In this document: piece after piece, positions 18,783-61,948 of the stretch
Numbering within the stretch: the stretch's first letter is position 1
How the letters are laid out: every line of letters starts with the position of its first letter
NCBI GenBank assembly: GCA_004144595.1
Contig: SEEM01000013.1
Location: 1 to 64,000 of the forward strand
DNA from: Hyphomicrobiales bacterium
GTDB taxonomy: Bacteria > Pseudomonadota > Alphaproteobacteria > Rhizobiales > Beijerinckiaceae
Reading direction: 5' to 3'
Length of the DNA stretch: 64,000 nucleotides
Notes under the pieces: model-generated
What the model saw: only the letters and a program-made list of their open reading frames with translations
Database searches by the model: none
What the model was told of the DNA's origin: nothing
Program-made: the position numbers and the translations under genes

Positions 18783-20194
<1,412 letters not shown>

Positions 20195-20218
20195 ATGCTC
20201 GATATCTGAAGCGGAAAG

Positions 20219-20249
20219 CCCCGCGATGCCGCAAGGTCCGCGGGGTTTT
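20219..20249 (+). terminator. Rho-independent terminator after the ettA locus
   Basis: Stem CCCCGCG / CGCGGGG with a 13-base loop, followed by TTTT, 24 bases after the ettA stop codon. The A-rich 5' side pairs with the T tract. It is intact although the gene is broken. Confidence 0.75.
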
Positions 20250-20339
20250 CACGTATCGCTTCAAGAATGCCTCTGCGTGGCGGGCGGTTCGGCATCCCGG
20301 GCGCTGGACTGCAATCGCGCGCCGGCTTGAACTGCAGGC

Positions 20340-20978
20340 ATGCTGACCCTCGACCATCTCACCGTCATCGCCCCGACGCTCGTGGAAGGCGTCGCGCATG
20401 TGCGCGACTGTCTCGGCCTCGATGTGCCCTTTGGCCAGCGGCACGGCTATATGGGCACCCATAACCACCTGCTCCAGCTCGGCGAGTCCGTCTATCTGGA
20501 GATCGTCGCGCTCGATCCTGATGGGACGCATCCCGGTCGGGCGCGCTGGTTCGGCCTCGACGACGAGAAGCAGGTTCGGCGGGATTGGGATGCCGGCCAT
20601 CGCTTGCGCGGCTGGGTCGCCCGGACCGAACGGATCGACGATGTGCTGAAGGGCCGCGAGGCGACCTTCGGCCGCAAGGTGGGCTTGCCGATGGGTGCCC
20701 CTGTCTTCGACTTCGCCATTCCGGACGATGGCTCGCTGCCATGGGGCGGGGCGGCTCCCTCGATCATCGATCGGCGCGGCAAGCAGCGCTCCATGGCGTC
20801 GATCGCGGATCTGGGCGCCCGCTTGCGCGGGTTTTCGCTGGAGCATCCGCAGGCCGAGGCGCTCGTGGCGCTGTTGCAGGAACTGGGAACGGATCGTGGG
20901 CCTGTCGTCAGCCATGGGCCGGAGCTGCGCTATCGGGCGCAGATCGAGACGTCCACGGGTCTCCATGAGTTGTCCTGA
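20340..20978 (+). CDS. VOC-family protein (Glyoxalase_3-like)
   Basis: 212 residues. The N-terminus (LTLDHLTVIAPTLVEGVAHVRDCLGLDVPFGQRHGYMGTHNHLLQLG) and VYLEIVALDP match the glyoxalase-like domain of the vicinal oxygen chelate superfamily. His6 in the DHL motif and the Glu in YLEI are possible metal ligands. The rest (about 100-212) is the second half of the fold, less conserved. The reaction is unknown. A single-gene unit after the terminator. Confidence 0.8.
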   Translation: MLTLDHLTVIAPTLVEGVAHVRDCLGLDVPFGQRHGYMGTHNHLLQLGESVYLEIVALDPDGTHPGRARWFGLDDEKQVRRDWDAGHRLRGWVARTERIDDVLKGREATFGRKVGLPMGAPVFDFAIPDDGSLPWGGAAPSIIDRRGKQRSMASIADLGARLRGFSLEHPQAEALVALLQELGTDRGPVVSHGPELRYRAQIETSTGLHELS

Positions 20979-21080: not shown

Positions 21081-21095
21081 TTAAGTTATGATTAA
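21081..21095 (+). promoter_or_regulatory. CtrA-type box upstream of the peptide-binding protein gene
   Basis: A perfect TTAA-N7-TTAA (spacer GTTATGA), 122 bases before the start codon of the substrate-binding protein. In such GC-rich DNA, perfect boxes of this kind should be rare. CtrA recognition of this pattern is established; control of this gene is inferred. Confidence 0.4.
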
Positions 21096-25012: not shown

Positions 25013-25534
25013 GGCGTGGCCTGTATCGGCTGCCGGTTGCGTCCGCCAGAGGCTAGCAAGGATCGCGCCGGGAGACGCCCGGTTTCCCGGCCGGATTGTC
25101 GCGGTAAGCGATCCGAGCGCGCCGGGAAGCTGCATTTGGCTGTTCCTGCGCGCGGAACCGGGTGCTGGTCTTGCTTCGCTAGTTGGGGCGAATTGCCCTT
25201 GCGATGGCGGGTATCGCGGGATTTTGCCAAGATGAGGCTTTGCCCGGCGAGGCGATGGCCGTCGATTTCGAGCTGGAATCGCTCAATCGGGGAAATTGCG
25301 AAGAGAGCGACGCTACGTCGTCGATCCCGGATCGATCGAATTCGATCTGACCGATTCTTGTCGCGCCTGCGCCAAGATACGGATCGTGCTGACAAAATCT
25401 TGCATGACGGAAGAGACCGCTGCCCGCCCTTTCATCTCGACAAGAATGGGTTTTCGGTCAATCCTTACCTTGCCGGCATAGGAGCCATGCGTTCCGTGCT
25501 GGTTTGAGACGCTTTGGCTTCGAGGGATGTGGCG
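25013..25534. other. 522-bp non-coding stretch between yitT-like and cold-shock genes
   Basis: The small ORFs here overlap each other on both strands and have no recognisable protein features. The part nearest the cold-shock gene is less GC-rich and probably holds its promoter and long leader. A six-codon ORF (ATG CGT TCC GTG CTG GTT TGA) with AGGAG just upstream ends at 25507, 27 bases before the cold-shock start. No RNA gene was recognised. Confidence 0.5.
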
Positions 25535-25738
25535 ATGGCGACCGGAACCGTAAAATGGTTCAACACTGAGAAGGGGTTTGGCTTCATTCAACCGGCGGAC
25601 GGCGGCAAGGATGTGTTCGTGCACATCACAGCCGTGAAAGAGGCCGGCATGATGACGCTGACGGAGGGGCAGAAGGTTTCGTTCGAGCTGAAGACCGAGC
25701 GCGGCAAAACGGCCGCGGGCGATCTGAAGGTGCTCTGA
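25535..25738 (+). CDS. Cold-shock domain protein
   Basis: 67 residues from the ATG at 25535 ([20 protein letters not shown]), the standard CspA-type start; the track start is seven codons upstream. The RNA-binding motifs RNP1 (KGFGFI) and RNP2 (DVFVHI) are both present. It binds single-stranded RNA/DNA as a chaperone. Alphaproteobacteria carry several copies, and this one could be cold-induced or constitutive. A long leader upstream is consistent with post-transcriptional control. Confidence 0.95.
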
Positions 25739-26387
25739 GACCCGTCTTCCGCCTTGAGGCTCGCCGGCCGCGTGCGGCGGGGCGCTGGCGAACGCGCGCC
25801 AAAAATCACGACTGGATCGGCGTTGATGCCGCCTTTCCTGAGCGTTCCCTCTTGACGTGACATGTTGCACCGAAGGCCCTGTCCAGGCCTGGCCCGCGGC
25901 AGGCAGCTCGATCATTTCCGAGGACGCGCGAAGCGCAGGCAGCGCTCACACTCGGTGGCTGCTCGACGATGTCGAAACGATGTCGGACGGCGGCACCTTT
26001 GCTTGCCCGGCTCACCAGCAGCGGTACGGCCGCCCTTCTCCGCGATGTAGAGCCTGCGGCGCGCTAGGATTGCGCACTCCCATGCGCCGGTGAGGCTCAG
26101 AATCCGCCCCAGCAACACCAGCCAGACCAATCTCGTTAACGTTCAGTTAAATTTGAGCTTTTTCTGCTGGACGAAGCGTCGTCCTAATGATACCTATAAG
26201 TTGTTCAAATAAAGAAAATAGAGTTTCGGGTTATCTGCGCGTCGTGTTTCGTTCTCCAAGATTTATCAGCTTGGGTCTCGTTGAGATTTACCGATCTCAA
26301 GATTTTGCAAGTTGGTATTCTCTGGAATGCGATTCGCATCCGCGGCCTCCGGCCTGAACTCATCCAGAACTGGGGTAGTGAGGCGTC
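25739..26387. other. 649-bp non-coding leader region upstream of the coiled-coil cluster
   Basis: The first 350 bases are GC-rich and hold overlapping short ORFs without protein features. From about 26120 the composition changes to AT-rich, unlike most of the window, with runs such as CAAATAAAGAAAATAG. This part contains a perfect CtrA-type box and probably the promoter of the crescentin-like gene. A short inverted repeat (GAGAT-TTACCG-ATCTC) lies near 26285. No RNA gene was recognised. Confidence 0.5.
26136..26150 (+). promoter_or_regulatory. CtrA-type box upstream of the coiled-coil cluster
   Basis: A perfect TTAA-N7-TTAA (spacer CGTTCAG), in the AT-rich leader 237 bases before the crescentin-like start codon. 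CtrA is the cell-cycle master regulator of alphaproteobacteria; regulation of this cluster by it is inferred from the site alone. Confidence 0.45.
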
Positions 26388-27881
26388 ATGGCGTGGAAAG
26401 CTTTCCGCAGTGTGCTCTCGGGCGCGCCTTCGCCTCAGGGAGAGCCCGGAGTTGAACCCTCGCGTGGCGCTCAGTCACTATCCAGCCATCAGCCAGCCAA
26501 GCTGGCGCCGAAGCCTCTCGCCCTGGATGCCATCGGTCAGCGCGACGAGGTCGTAAGGCAGCGCATCGGTGCGATGCTGGATCGCCTCGACGATCTGCGC
26601 AGCTTGCGGGACGATTTTTCGTCTATTCTTGAGCCGCTGGTTCAAATCAGCGACGAGTTGCCTCGCTCCAGTATGCGCATCGCCGAGCTGGAGGTCTCTC
26701 TTTCGCAGGAGCGCCAATCCTTCGCGGCGGTTCGGCAGGATCTGGCCGATGCGCTCTCCAAGTCCGGTGTCGTTGCCAACGATCTTTCCGAAGCCCTGGC
26801 CAGAGCGGACAGGGCCGAGAGCGAGCTCATGGATCGCGAGCGCCTGATTGCGGAGCAAGCGATCGCGCTGCGTGACAAGACAATGGCGACCGAAAACCTG
26901 GAGCGTCAGCTTTTCGGCGAGACAGAGCTGGCCAAGGCCCTCGCTAGCGAGAACAAGGCCCTGCGCTTGGAAGCGCAGGCCGCCGATTCAGCGCTTTCGC
27001 GATCGGAGCATGAACTCCTCACCGCACGGGAACGTCTGGGTATTCTCGATCAAGACAGCCGCAAGCTGCAGATCCTGAGCGAGGAACAGAGCCGCCATCT
27101 CTCTGATCTGACCGAGCGCTTCAAGGAAATGGAAGGAACGGCTGAAGCCAGCCGGCACAGGCTGCGCACGGTCGAGGCCGATCTGATCGGCGAGAAAGAA
27201 GCGCGCGAGCGTCTGGAGGCGCAAAACGAGGTCGAGGTCGGCAGTTACAAGACCGAGCGCGCTGCGTTGAGCATGAAGCTTGAAGCAGCCGAGAATCGTG
27301 CTGCGACGAACGATCAGTTGCTTTCTCAGACTCGCAGTCTCCTTCGAGAGAAGGATGAGGCGCATCGGACTGCCGAGCGCAATTTGAAGGAAGCGACCAT
27401 AGCCAGGGCGACGGCCGAGCGCCGCGTCGAAGCCTTGCAGGCGGATCTCGTCCGGCAGACCGAGCGCTTCCAGGAAGCTCAACGCGTCAGGGCCGAGCTC
27501 GATAGCCGTGCCGCCATGCTCAACAAGGCGATGGCAGCAAAGGATTCGGCGCTGGATCAGGCGACGATGCGCAATACGGGCTTGACCGATCGCATCGCCG
27601 AGCTGACGCGCAAACATGAGGCGACCCGCGCCGAACTCGAGATCGGCAACCGGCGGCTGGCCGAGGATCTCGAGAACGAGCGTTCGGAAAGAACCCTGTT
27701 GCAGGGCGCTCTCGACATCGCGCGAGAAACGAGGGTCGCCCTCCAGAAACAGCATGAGGCCTTGAAGCGCTCGGGCCGCCATTGGCGCGATGATGCGAAG
27801 GCCGAGATCGATCACGAAGCCGAGCAAGCTGGCGATAGCAGCAATGTCCGGCCGTTTGCAGCACCTGCCAAGCCCGTTTGA
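26388..27881 (+). CDS. Crescentin-like coiled-coil protein
   Basis: 497 residues. After a flexible, Pro/Ser-rich and slightly basic N-terminus (about 1-45), almost the whole protein (about 48-465) is heptad-rich coiled coil, ending in an acidic tail. The start of the rod (LDAIGQRDEVVRQRIGAMLD) and the late segment LLQGALDIARETRVALQ resemble, from memory, the corresponding parts of Caulobacter crescentin, an intermediate-filament-like protein of 457 residues that sets cell curvature. No ATPase motif is present, so this is not SMC. The start has GAGG eight bases upstream. First of four coiled-coil genes. The alternative is a generic coiled-coil scaffold; the crescentin link needs a search. Confidence 0.65.
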   Translation: MAWKAFRSVLSGAPSPQGEPGVEPSRGAQSLSSHQPAKLAPKPLALDAIGQRDEVVRQRIGAMLDRLDDLRSLRDDFSSILEPLVQISDELPRSSMRIAELEVSLSQERQSFAAVRQDLADALSKSGVVANDLSEALARADRAESELMDRERLIAEQAIALRDKTMATENLERQLFGETELAKALASENKALRLEAQAADSALSRSEHELLTARERLGILDQDSRKLQILSEEQSRHLSDLTERFKEMEGTAEASRHRLRTVEADLIGEKEARERLEAQNEVEVGSYKTERAALSMKLEAAENRAATNDQLLSQTRSLLREKDEAHRTAERNLKEATIARATAERRVEALQADLVRQTERFQEAQRVRAELDSRAAMLNKAMAAKDSALDQATMRNTGLTDRIAELTRKHEATRAELEIGNRRLAEDLENERSERTLLQGALDIARETRVALQKQHEALKRSGRHWRDDAKAEIDHEAEQAGDSSNVRPFAAPAKPV

Positions 27882-27932: not shown

Positions 27933-28430
27933 GTGACCGATCAAGCGCTCAAAGGTATCGCCGCGTTCGTTCCCGCTCTGAACGCCCACGCGGCCCGCCA
28001 ACGTCAGCTTTCCCCGCTTCCTCTCAGCGAAAAGGTCGTTTCGTTGGCGCTCCCGATTGTCGAACAGCCTGTCGCGCAAGCAGATGTGCCCGTTACGCGA
28101 GACTGGGCTGCGGCGCTCGAGCTTGTTCGAGAGGCAAGCGAGGCGATCCGTGTCGGCGAAGAACGGGCCAGCCAGCTCGAGCAGCATCTGGCGGACGTTC
28201 TCACGGAGGCGAATGCCGAGATCAAGCGCCTCACCGACCTCATCTCAGCCGGCGAGAACAAGTTGGCCCAGTCCGAGGCGAAAGCGAGCGCAGCGGAGAC
28301 GCGGGCAGTGGAAGCCGAAGCATGGCTGAGCAAGCTGCATGACGCCGTCGTCGCTTCCTTTGCTCCTATGCTCGGTAAAAGCGAAGAACTGCAGCCCGAC
28401 GATATCCAGGCCAGTTCGGTGCAGAACTAG
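27933..28430 (+). CDS. Small coiled-coil protein, cluster member 2
   Basis: 165 residues, GTG start with AGGA upstream. An N-terminal non-coiled part (about 1-60) is followed by a coiled coil (about 60-145) and an acidic tail (GKSEELQPDDIQ). The last helix contains AETRAVEAEAWLSKLHDAVVASF, closely similar to the end of the next protein. No signal peptide or membrane segment. It follows the crescentin-like gene after 51 bases. I do not recognise a family. It probably partners or modulates the filament, which is inference. Confidence 0.6.
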   Translation: MTDQALKGIAAFVPALNAHAARQRQLSPLPLSEKVVSLALPIVEQPVAQADVPVTRDWAAALELVREASEAIRVGEERASQLEQHLADVLTEANAEIKRLTDLISAGENKLAQSEAKASAAETRAVEAEAWLSKLHDAVVASFAPMLGKSEELQPDDIQASSVQN

Positions 28431-28549
28431 ATCGTCGCGAATCTGCTGGGCTGGGGGGCCGGGCTTGATTGTGGCGTGACGTTGGAAAGGCAGCTTTCCG
28501 GTATTCCGATCGCCGCTTCGAGCATCTCGATTTGGGTCTCACAGATAAC

Positions 28550-29029
28550 ATGAACGAACCCATGCGATATCCGATGCTGGTCGCCCCAACAGCGGCTTCT
28601 GCCGAAAAGACGCTCCACCGCGCAGCACAGCTCCAGAAGGATGCCGGCTTTCATTCGACGCTCGTTTGCGTCGAGCGAGCGGCAGAGATGATCAGGACGC
28701 TGCAAAACGAAAACGAGCTTGCCAGGCGCCAGATTGCGGCGCTTCGGGAGCAACTTTCCCAAGAAAAGCAGGACAGCCAAAAAGAGGCTGACAAACTGAA
28801 TGCGCTTGTCGGAAGTTGGCACGATCGGGCCAAGGCTGCAGAGAAGGCCAATGTTGAAGCAAGTGCTCTTGCCGTGGCCGCAATTGCGCAATGCGAGGAA
28901 TTGGCTGCGCATGAGCTTGAGCTAAGGGGGCAGTTGAAACAGGCTGAATCACGGGCGGTCGAGGCAGAGAATTACCTTACAGGGTTGCAGAACGCGATCG
29001 AGTTCGAGCTTTCAAGCGTCTTGCCGTGA
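28550..29029 (+). CDS. Small coiled-coil protein, cluster member 3
   Basis: 159 residues from the ATG at 28550; the track start is a TTG at 28469 and the true start is not certain. A short N-terminal region (about 1-45) precedes a coiled coil (about 45-145). The C-terminus AESRAVEAENYLTGLQNAIEFELSSVLP is clearly related to member 2. The protein is acidic, with no membrane segment. The stop overlaps the next start by four bases (GTGA). Function unknown. Confidence 0.6.
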   Translation: MNEPMRYPMLVAPTAASAEKTLHRAAQLQKDAGFHSTLVCVERAAEMIRTLQNENELARRQIAALREQLSQEKQDSQKEADKLNALVGSWHDRAKAAEKANVEASALAVAAIAQCEELAAHELELRGQLKQAESRAVEAENYLTGLQNAIEFELSSVLP

Positions 29030-29511
29030 AGCCGGCCATGAACTCCGAAGATCTTGAGGCCGCCGACAAGGAAGGCGGGCCCCATTCCGGGGATGTTGCA
29101 TTATTTGCGCGGTTCGCGGAGTTGGTTTCGAACGCTTCGCATCCGCCGTCACCGACTGGCGACCAAGCGCGAGTCGTCACCCAGAAATGGGAGAGTTCCC
29201 TCAGATTCATCAAAGACGTCGGAGAGCGCCTGCGCGAGTCTCAGAGGCGCTCCGAACAGGTGACCAGCGACGCCTACGAAATTGCTCGCAAAGCCATTTT
29301 AGCGATGCAGGAAGAAAGGGAGCGCGCAAATCACGCCGAGACGGCAGCGGCGGATGCGATGGCGAGAGCGAACGCTGCGGAAAGCGAAGTGCAGGCTTTG
29401 AGGCGCCAGCTGGAGCAAGGCGATGCCCCGCCGAGCGAGATCGATCACTGGCTTCGCGAAGCGCATGCCCGGCTTCTATTGGTGCGCCGTGACGCAACCG
29501 AGCATCGATAG
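29026..29511 (+). CDS. Small coiled-coil protein, cluster member 4
   Basis: 161 residues if translation starts at the GTG overlapping the previous stop; an ATG at 29038 is an alternative. An N-terminal part (about 5-50) contains ALFARFAELVSNASH. The coiled coil (about 58-135) has the same Ala/Glu-rich texture as its neighbours (AETAAADAMARANAAESEVQ) but lacks the exact RAVEAE block. It ends in IDHWLREAHARLLLVRRDA. Family not recognised. Last gene of the cluster. Confidence 0.55.
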   Translation: MKPAMNSEDLEAADKEGGPHSGDVALFARFAELVSNASHPPSPTGDQARVVTQKWESSLRFIKDVGERLRESQRRSEQVTSDAYEIARKAILAMQEERERANHAETAAADAMARANAAESEVQALRRQLEQGDAPPSEIDHWLREAHARLLLVRRDATEHR

Positions 29512-29701
29512 CAACGATTACCTTTTAGCGTCGTCTCATGCCCCGAAGAGCCTGGGCATTATCGAATTGCCTAGCAGCAAGTGCGGCAGGCATGGCCCAT
29601 CCGACCCGGTTTCGCCGAACTCTCTCTTTTCCTGAGGGGAGACGGAAGGAACCTCTGTCCTATCTTCCGCACGACAATCCGCTTGCACGAACGGTGTATT
29701 C

Positions 29702-60975: not shown

Positions 60976-60990
60976 TTAACCCCGCGTTAA
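60976..60990 (+). promoter_or_regulatory. CtrA-type box upstream of ddl-ftsQ-ftsA
   Basis: A perfect TTAA-N7-TTAA (spacer CCCCGCG), 43 bases before ddl. The second half overlaps a perfect 16-bp palindrome GTTAACCATGGTTAAC at 60986-61001, which supplies a third TTAA. CtrA control of ftsQA is established in Caulobacter; the site suggests the same here. Confidence 0.65.
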
Positions 60991-61033: not shown

Positions 61034-61948
61034 ATGACCAAACATGTCGCAGTGCTGATGGGCGGCTGGTCCGTCGAGCGGGAGGTCAGCCTCAACAGTG
61101 GCGCGGCCTGCGCCCGGGCGCTGGAAAGCATCGGCTACCGCGTCACCCGCGTCGACGTGCAGCGCGACATCGCCGAGGTGCTGGCAAAGCTGAAGCCGGA
61201 CGTCGCCTTCAACGCCCTGCATGGCCGCTTCGGCGAGGACGGCACGATCCAGGGCGTGCTGGAGATCCTGCGCATCCCCTACAGCCATTCCGGCGTGTTG
61301 GCCTCGGCTCTGGCGATCCGCAAGGATCGGGCGAAGACCGTGGTGAAGGCGGCCGGCGTGCCGGTCGCGCACGGTGTCAACGTCTCGCGATTCGCGGCCG
61401 CGAAAACGCACGTGCTGCCGCCCCCTTACGTGCTCAAGCCGATCGACGAGGGCTCTTCAGTCGGCGTCGTGATCGTGAAGCAGGGCAGGGAGCATCCGCC
61501 GCAGGAAATCGCCCGGCCGGACTGGCCTTGCGGCGAGATGCTGCTGGCTGAGACCTTCATCGCCGGGCGCGAACTGACCTGCGCCGTGATGGGCGAGCGC
61601 AGCCTCGGTGTGACCGAAATACAAGCCGCAACCGGTGAGTTTTACGACTACGACGCGAAGTACGCGAAAGGTGGCTCGATCCACATCTGTCCGGCTCAAA
61701 TTTTACCAAAAATTTACCAGCAGATCGAAGAGTGTGCGTTAACGGCGCATCAAGCAATCGGATGCCGGGGCGTCAGCCGATCTGACTTCCGCTACCACGA
61801 CGAGAGCGACACGCTCGTCTGGCTGGAAGTCAATACGCAGCCCGGGATGACCGAGACCAGCCTGGTGCCCGAATTGGCTGCCCATGCGGGCCTGGATTTC
61901 GGTGAGCTCGTCAAATGGATGGTGGACGACGCCTCCCTCGATCGGTGA
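61034..61948 (+). CDS. ddl: D-alanine-D-alanine ligase
   Basis: 304 residues, the short DdlB type. ATP-grasp motifs are VAVLMGGWSVEREVSLNSG, FNALHGRFGEDGTIQGVLE, YVLKPIDEGSSVGV, FIAGRELTCAVMGE and the metal site WLEVNTQPGMTETSLVPE. It makes the dipeptide used by MurF. Near its 3' end (about 61695-61745) the coding sequence turns AT-rich and uses rare TTA leucine codons, perhaps because it also holds a promoter for ftsQ. Confidence 0.97.
   Translation: MTKHVAVLMGGWSVEREVSLNSGAACARALESIGYRVTRVDVQRDIAEVLAKLKPDVAFNALHGRFGEDGTIQGVLEILRIPYSHSGVLASALAIRKDRAKTVVKAAGVPVAHGVNVSRFAAAKTHVLPPPYVLKPIDEGSSVGVVIVKQGREHPPQEIARPDWPCGEMLLAETFIAGRELTCAVMGERSLGVTEIQAATGEFYDYDAKYAKGGSIHICPAQILPKIYQQIEECALTAHQAIGCRGVSRSDFRYHDESDTLVWLEVNTQPGMTETSLVPELAAHAGLDFGELVKWMVDDASLDR
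61703..61717 (+). promoter_or_regulatory. Degenerate CtrA-like site inside the 3' end of ddl
   Basis: TTAC, seven bases, TTAC, in an AT-rich island within the otherwise GC-rich coding sequence, about 240 bases before ftsQ. It could belong to an internal promoter for ftsQ-ftsA. Weak evidence from sequence pattern and codon use only. Confidence 0.25.

Follow-up and report, generated by a model that had tools for sequence, protein, structure and literature searches.

A predicted CtrA-type promoter site before the crescentin gene cluster of a Bosea genome

Among bacterial intermediate-filament-like proteins crescentin is the best known, and almost all that is understood about how it is regulated was learned in Caulobacter. 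Were a CtrA site conserved ahead of the crescentin gene (creS) of another order, it would predict the cell-cycle time of bending. The stretch analysed, hereafter the window, is 64 kb of DNA from a genome whose genus was inferred to be Bosea. An initial annotation had placed a perfect CtrA-type box in an AT-rich leader ahead of a cluster of coiled-coil genes. A new CtrA target is of interest here because the target is crescentin and because the wiring in Caulobacter is reported to differ.

The cluster, its leader and the box

The proposed coiled-coil cluster turned out to consist of a full-length crescentin gene followed by three small coiled-coil ORFs in the same direction (Table 1). The creS ORF matched PF19220 from end to end (profile 1-359 of 359; 394.8 bits against a cut-off of 100, E=4.7e-118), and its protein is 94% and 78% identical to those of the Bosea genomes G012 and G085, respectively. 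The three small ORFs had no Pfam match, and none of them came near a curated cut-off in NCBIfam. On the 3' side, a gap of 222 bases separates the cluster from an ArsR-methyltransferase/metF/metH run. A cold-shock gene precedes the cluster, and a sub-threshold Rfam match to the cspA thermoregulator lying over it (25400-25696; 24.3 bits, E=0.0005) probably stems from the coding sequence.

Table 1. Positions of the features discussed, numbered along the window.
Feature	Position	Strand	Basis or remark
AT-rich leader, box to crescentin start	26120..26387	+	GC computation
73-base run identical to G012	26120..26192	+	contains box and presumed core promoter; flanks less alike
Perfect CtrA-type box TTAACGTTCAGTTAA	26136..26150	.	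237 bases 5' of crescentin start codon; also perfect at the equivalent position in G012 and G085
TGGACG, putative -35-like element	26168..26173	+	17 bases 3' of box; sequence and comparison
Perfect inverted repeat GGACGA-AGCG-TCGTCC	26169..26184	.	overlaps -35-like element; sequence
CGATTCG, GANTC (CcrM) site of the extended form YGAKTCK	26330..26336	+	kept in G012; possible second GcrA/CcrM input
Crescentin (creS), 497 aa, Rod_CreS PF19220 complete	26388..27881	+	profile search
Crescentin companion, 165-aa coiled coil, GTG start	27933..28430	+	homologue directly 3' of creS in 46/46 named loci
Small coiled-coil protein, 186 aa, third cluster gene	28469..29029	+	kept in G012 (87%) and G085 (55%)
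Small coiled-coil protein, 161 aa, fourth gene, overlaps third	29026..29511	+	kept in G012 (87%) and G085 (51%)
Perfect box before ddl, extended form TTAA-N7-TTAACCAT	60976..60990	.	in division/cell-wall cluster; kept in G012
ddl (D-Ala-D-Ala ligase), then ftsQ	61034..61948	+	profile search

A motif scan of the window located TTAACGTTCAGTTAA, that is TTAA-N7-TTAA with 0 mismatches, exactly where the box had been claimed. TTAA-N7-TTAA is the established CtrA motif across the Alphaproteobacteria (PMC7200025; PMC9437464). Three perfect copies occur in the window (at 21081, 26136, and 60976), as against a mean of 0.02 in dinucleotide shuffles of the same DNA (n=100), none of which reached three. 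Across the whole genome (4.95 Mb) there were 21 perfect boxes versus 11 matches to the pattern written backwards, and the genomes of two relatives gave 25 versus 10 and 21 versus 7. Most of the 21 boxes have a counterpart in G012 by spacer similarity, and for the one at 26136 this was confirmed by aligned position. CtrA itself is encoded in the genome, the best match having 84% identity over 224 aa to the Caulobacter CtrA query and the next best only 39%. That creS is a new target of this known regulator is a prediction supported by both sequence and comparison.

The other perfect boxes of the genome lie mostly in upstream intergenic DNA. Among the genes they precede are those for an RlpA-like protein, MipA, an outer-membrane barrel, a histidine kinase, a FliM-containing locus, and FtsK, as well as for GGDEF and EAL proteins, an SLT transglycosylase, a cell-wall hydrolase, and ddl, so that the putative targets form a coherent set of envelope, flagellar, c-di-GMP, and division genes. 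The box at 60976 reads TTAACCCCGCGTTAACCAT and stands 43 bases before ddl in a murB-ddl-ftsQ run; the orthologous place in G012, found by aligned position, carries TTAACTCCCCGTTAA with a changed spacer. The earlier suggestion that the coiled-coil cluster shares its regulator with the division genes of the window holds in this respect at the level of sequence. The third box of the window (21081-21095) is situated 115 bases upstream of a minus-strand ORF (20184-20966, 260 aa) that had no Pfam match, and its 15-mer recurs unchanged in G012 at the expected distance.

The leader was likewise found to be as AT-rich and as unlike its surroundings as described, with a GC content of 0.408 over 26120-26330 and 0.467 over 26100-26390 against a window mean of 0.666; the 211-base stretch with the lowest GC of the whole window (about 0.40) starts at 26124. 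Conservation between the window and G012 peaks in the identical 73-base run, identity being 70% just upstream of it and 85% in the later leader. In G085 the -35-like TGGACG recurs 18 bases 3' of the box, and the place equivalent to 26169-26184 holds a different perfect inverted repeat, TGGAC-GACCA-GTCCA. An Rfam scan of the leader found no RNA family; the leader RNA fold was somewhat stable (z = -2.5), and a further inverted repeat, TTGAGAT..ATCTCAA at 26273-26310, is retained in G012, where its loop differs.

Taken together, the box at 26136 is probably a CtrA-binding promoter site of the crescentin operon, which would be activated in the CtrA-high phase. Phosphorylated CtrA would most likely bind as a dimer to both TTAA half-sites, 5' of a weak -35 element that follows after about 17 bases, and would recruit RNA polymerase to an operon comprising creS, the companion, and the two further small coiled-coil genes, so that crescentin synthesis would rise during that phase of the cell cycle. 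What I infer from this arrangement is that CtrA binds at creS, that it activates and does not repress, where transcription starts, and when in the cycle this happens. The distance of the box from the start codon (237 bases) counts against CtrA control, as does the -10 region: a sigma-70 consensus scan gave no match, and no good -10 element is evident.

Conservation in Bosea and the chromosomal place of the cluster

In a class-wide sample, crescentin was found in 1 of 385 genomes, which was the window's own, and the comparison was therefore moved to the genus, the family, and named genomes. Among 67 genomes of the window's inferred genus, Bosea, full-length crescentin was present in three, those of the window, G012, and G085. 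According to the initial annotation, its reading would have failed if close relatives that retain the cluster lacked the box; the box was present and perfect in all three, at 252, 254, and 270 bases before the start. In G085 the box reads TTAACAATCGATTAA, in which the half-sites are intact and the spacer and flanks have changed. The half-sites have thus been kept while the letters between them drifted, which is the pattern expected from selection on a dimeric site.

The cluster occupies the same place in G012 as in the window, and in G085 it stands elsewhere, beside unrelated genes. As the window and G012 are close relatives, G085 is the only truly separate case within Bosea, and the pairing of box and cluster is seen at two chromosomal sites that are unrelated to each other. 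Seven close relatives (G021, G016, G022, G023, G002, G026, and G018) have the interval from cspA to the ArsR-methyltransferase gene, but the crescentin cluster is missing from it: the homology with the window that starts in cspA ends no later than ~25985 and picks up again around 29595-29657. This break marks the cluster and its promoter as a discrete piece of ~3.5 kb at the window's place. A search for the crescentin cassette on plasmids found none. About a dozen other Bosea (loci L031-L042) have a short crescentin-like ORF of 250-300 aa of which only the second rod half was matched; these ORFs adjoin a companion homologue, and no CtrA box was found at them.

The simplest alternative is that AT-rich promoter DNA happened to hold TTAA-N7-TTAA and that close kinship preserved it. 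It gains some ground from the non-independence of the window and G012, with their 94% identical creS proteins, and from the greater likelihood of matches in an AT-rich leader. Chance is nevertheless very improbable, since G085 provides a second case with a different spacer, a perfect box in a given 300-base promoter would be expected in about 1 in 800 at a density of 21 per 4.95 Mb, and shuffling the upstream regions of the three Bosea creS genes produced no perfect box in 60 rounds; counts in the Methylobacterium group, given below, also lie far above those of shuffles and of the reversed motif.

A second alternative attributes the conserved AT-rich core to another reader of AT-rich DNA, for example one of the MucR/Ros type, or to a simple AT-rich upstream element of the promoter. 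Such an explanation fits the AT content of the leader, which no other stretch of the window exceeds, and the behaviour of MucR-type proteins, which bind at AT-rich promoters and whose targets in Caulobacter overlap with those of CtrA. It appears improbable all the same, because G085 retains both TTAA half-sites although its leader lacks this AT-richness (GC 0.62 in the 400 bases ahead of creS), because the stretch between box and TTGAC in Methylobacterium is often GC-rich, unlike an upstream element, and because the reversed motif AATT-N7-AATT, equally AT-rich, was not enriched.

Crescentin promoters beyond Bosea

Of the 32 creS loci of the Methylobacterium group, 9 had a perfect box within 350 bases and 20 a box with at most one mismatch; these loci are related rather than independent, and most of the sites have one mismatch. 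The corresponding controls were 0.07 perfect boxes and 1.7 with at most one mismatch in shuffles, and 0 and 3 for the reversed motif. Nine loci of this group carry TTGAC, the counterpart of the putative -35-like TGGACG of Bosea, exactly 19 bases 3' of the box with differing intervening sequences. Seven Methylobacterium species share tandem boxes, in which the half-sites are kept and the spacer of the perfect box varies. Since a divergent gene has its start close by, their distal boxes were not taken as solid evidence for creS.

Elsewhere the box was at chance level: genus g329 (41 creS loci) had 1 perfect box and 2 with at most one mismatch against a control of 0 and 2, and the remaining lineages had a box in 8 of 32 loci against 10 of 32 in the control. 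In Aureimonas creS promoters the reversed motif was as common as the box. The idea of a universal CtrA box at creS was rejected on these grounds, and creS genes are not in general under CtrA control; judging from promoter sequences, the box belongs to the Bosea/Methylobacterium branch. Two creS loci of g329 (L149 in G762, and G797:C180) are split into two parts ~15 kb apart, as if interrupted by an inserted element.

Control by GcrA and CcrM is the alternative suggested by Caulobacter: a methylated GANTC in the leader would recruit GcrA, and the TTAA box would be secondary or silent. Caulobacter creS is reported to depend on GcrA and methylation (PMC8959179), and its mRNA is down 1.6-fold without CcrM (PMC3973325). 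Each of the three Bosea genomes with full-length creS has a GcrA gene, and the site at 26330-26336, kept in G012, fits the extended definition YGAKTCK (PMC7987155). Set against this, GANTC is no more frequent before Bosea creS than in shuffles (2.0 per 400 bases in both) and falls below shuffles in the other groups. The conserved GANTC follows the presumed core promoter at a distance of ~160 bases, the 73-base identical core contains none, and the GANTC sites in the leader of G085 all stand elsewhere and are not of the extended form. GcrA/CcrM control is on balance unlikely; in its milder form it amounts to dual control, for which the presence of GcrA and of one extended GANTC in the leader leaves room. 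Separately, Methylorubrum-type creS promoters (L177, L180, L181, and L182) share a conserved GACTC (GANTC) motif, possibly reflecting GcrA/CcrM control as in Caulobacter.

The companion gene and comparison with known systems

A homologue of the 165-aa companion was found directly downstream of creS in all 46 named loci (L175-L220), which comprise Bosea, Methylobacterium, Methylorubrum, Aureimonas, and Beijerinckiaceae MAGs. It was also found in several further genera and in none of the g329 creS loci. The homologues share a pattern of R-x-W near residue 56, EAxxAIR near 67-73, and RAxxAExWL near 124-132, in which R, W, E, and A positions do not vary. The companion is a strong candidate for a crescentin partner, and its gene offers a direct genetic test for a missing one.

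A wider reading, put forward tentatively and with some doubt, is that the crescentin of Bosea and Methylobacterium might be a portable curvature cassette with its own CtrA-responsive promoter, plugging into the host cell cycle at new places, its timing rewired between CtrA and GcrA/CcrM and the companion serving as an unrecognised filament partner. The cassette so conceived consists of creS and its dedicated companion, with two more coiled-coil genes in Bosea. As Caulobacter creS is reported to be GcrA/CcrM-dependent, the arrangement in the window looks like rewired crescentin control on such a cassette, and if the CtrA site is real, the same shape gene would be wired to different nodes of one cell-cycle network.

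Among known CtrA regulon promoters in Caulobacter, Hyphomonas, and Sinorhizobium (PMC7200025; PMC9437464), the box and the classes of target genes are the same as here; what differs is that the target here is crescentin. Among papers naming both crescentin and CtrA, those consulted contained no report of a link between CtrA and creS. Crescentin-like proteins of the Hyphomicrobiales have been described in PMC12700997, with the same PF19220 family, order, and patchy distribution as found here, and the creS of Chelatococcus reniformis restores curvature in Caulobacter; its passages on these homologues concern the proteins, whereas a promoter and a companion gene are described here. The closest comparison is the creS promoter of Caulobacter itself. 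As here, it ties a crescentin gene to the alphaproteobacterial cell-cycle circuit, and its dependence on GcrA/CcrM (Mohapatra et al. 2020) is cited in PMC8959179, which treats curvature as CtrA-independent. The reported input in Caulobacter is GcrA together with GANTC methylation, whereas the conserved element before the Bosea crescentin gene is a CtrA-type box.
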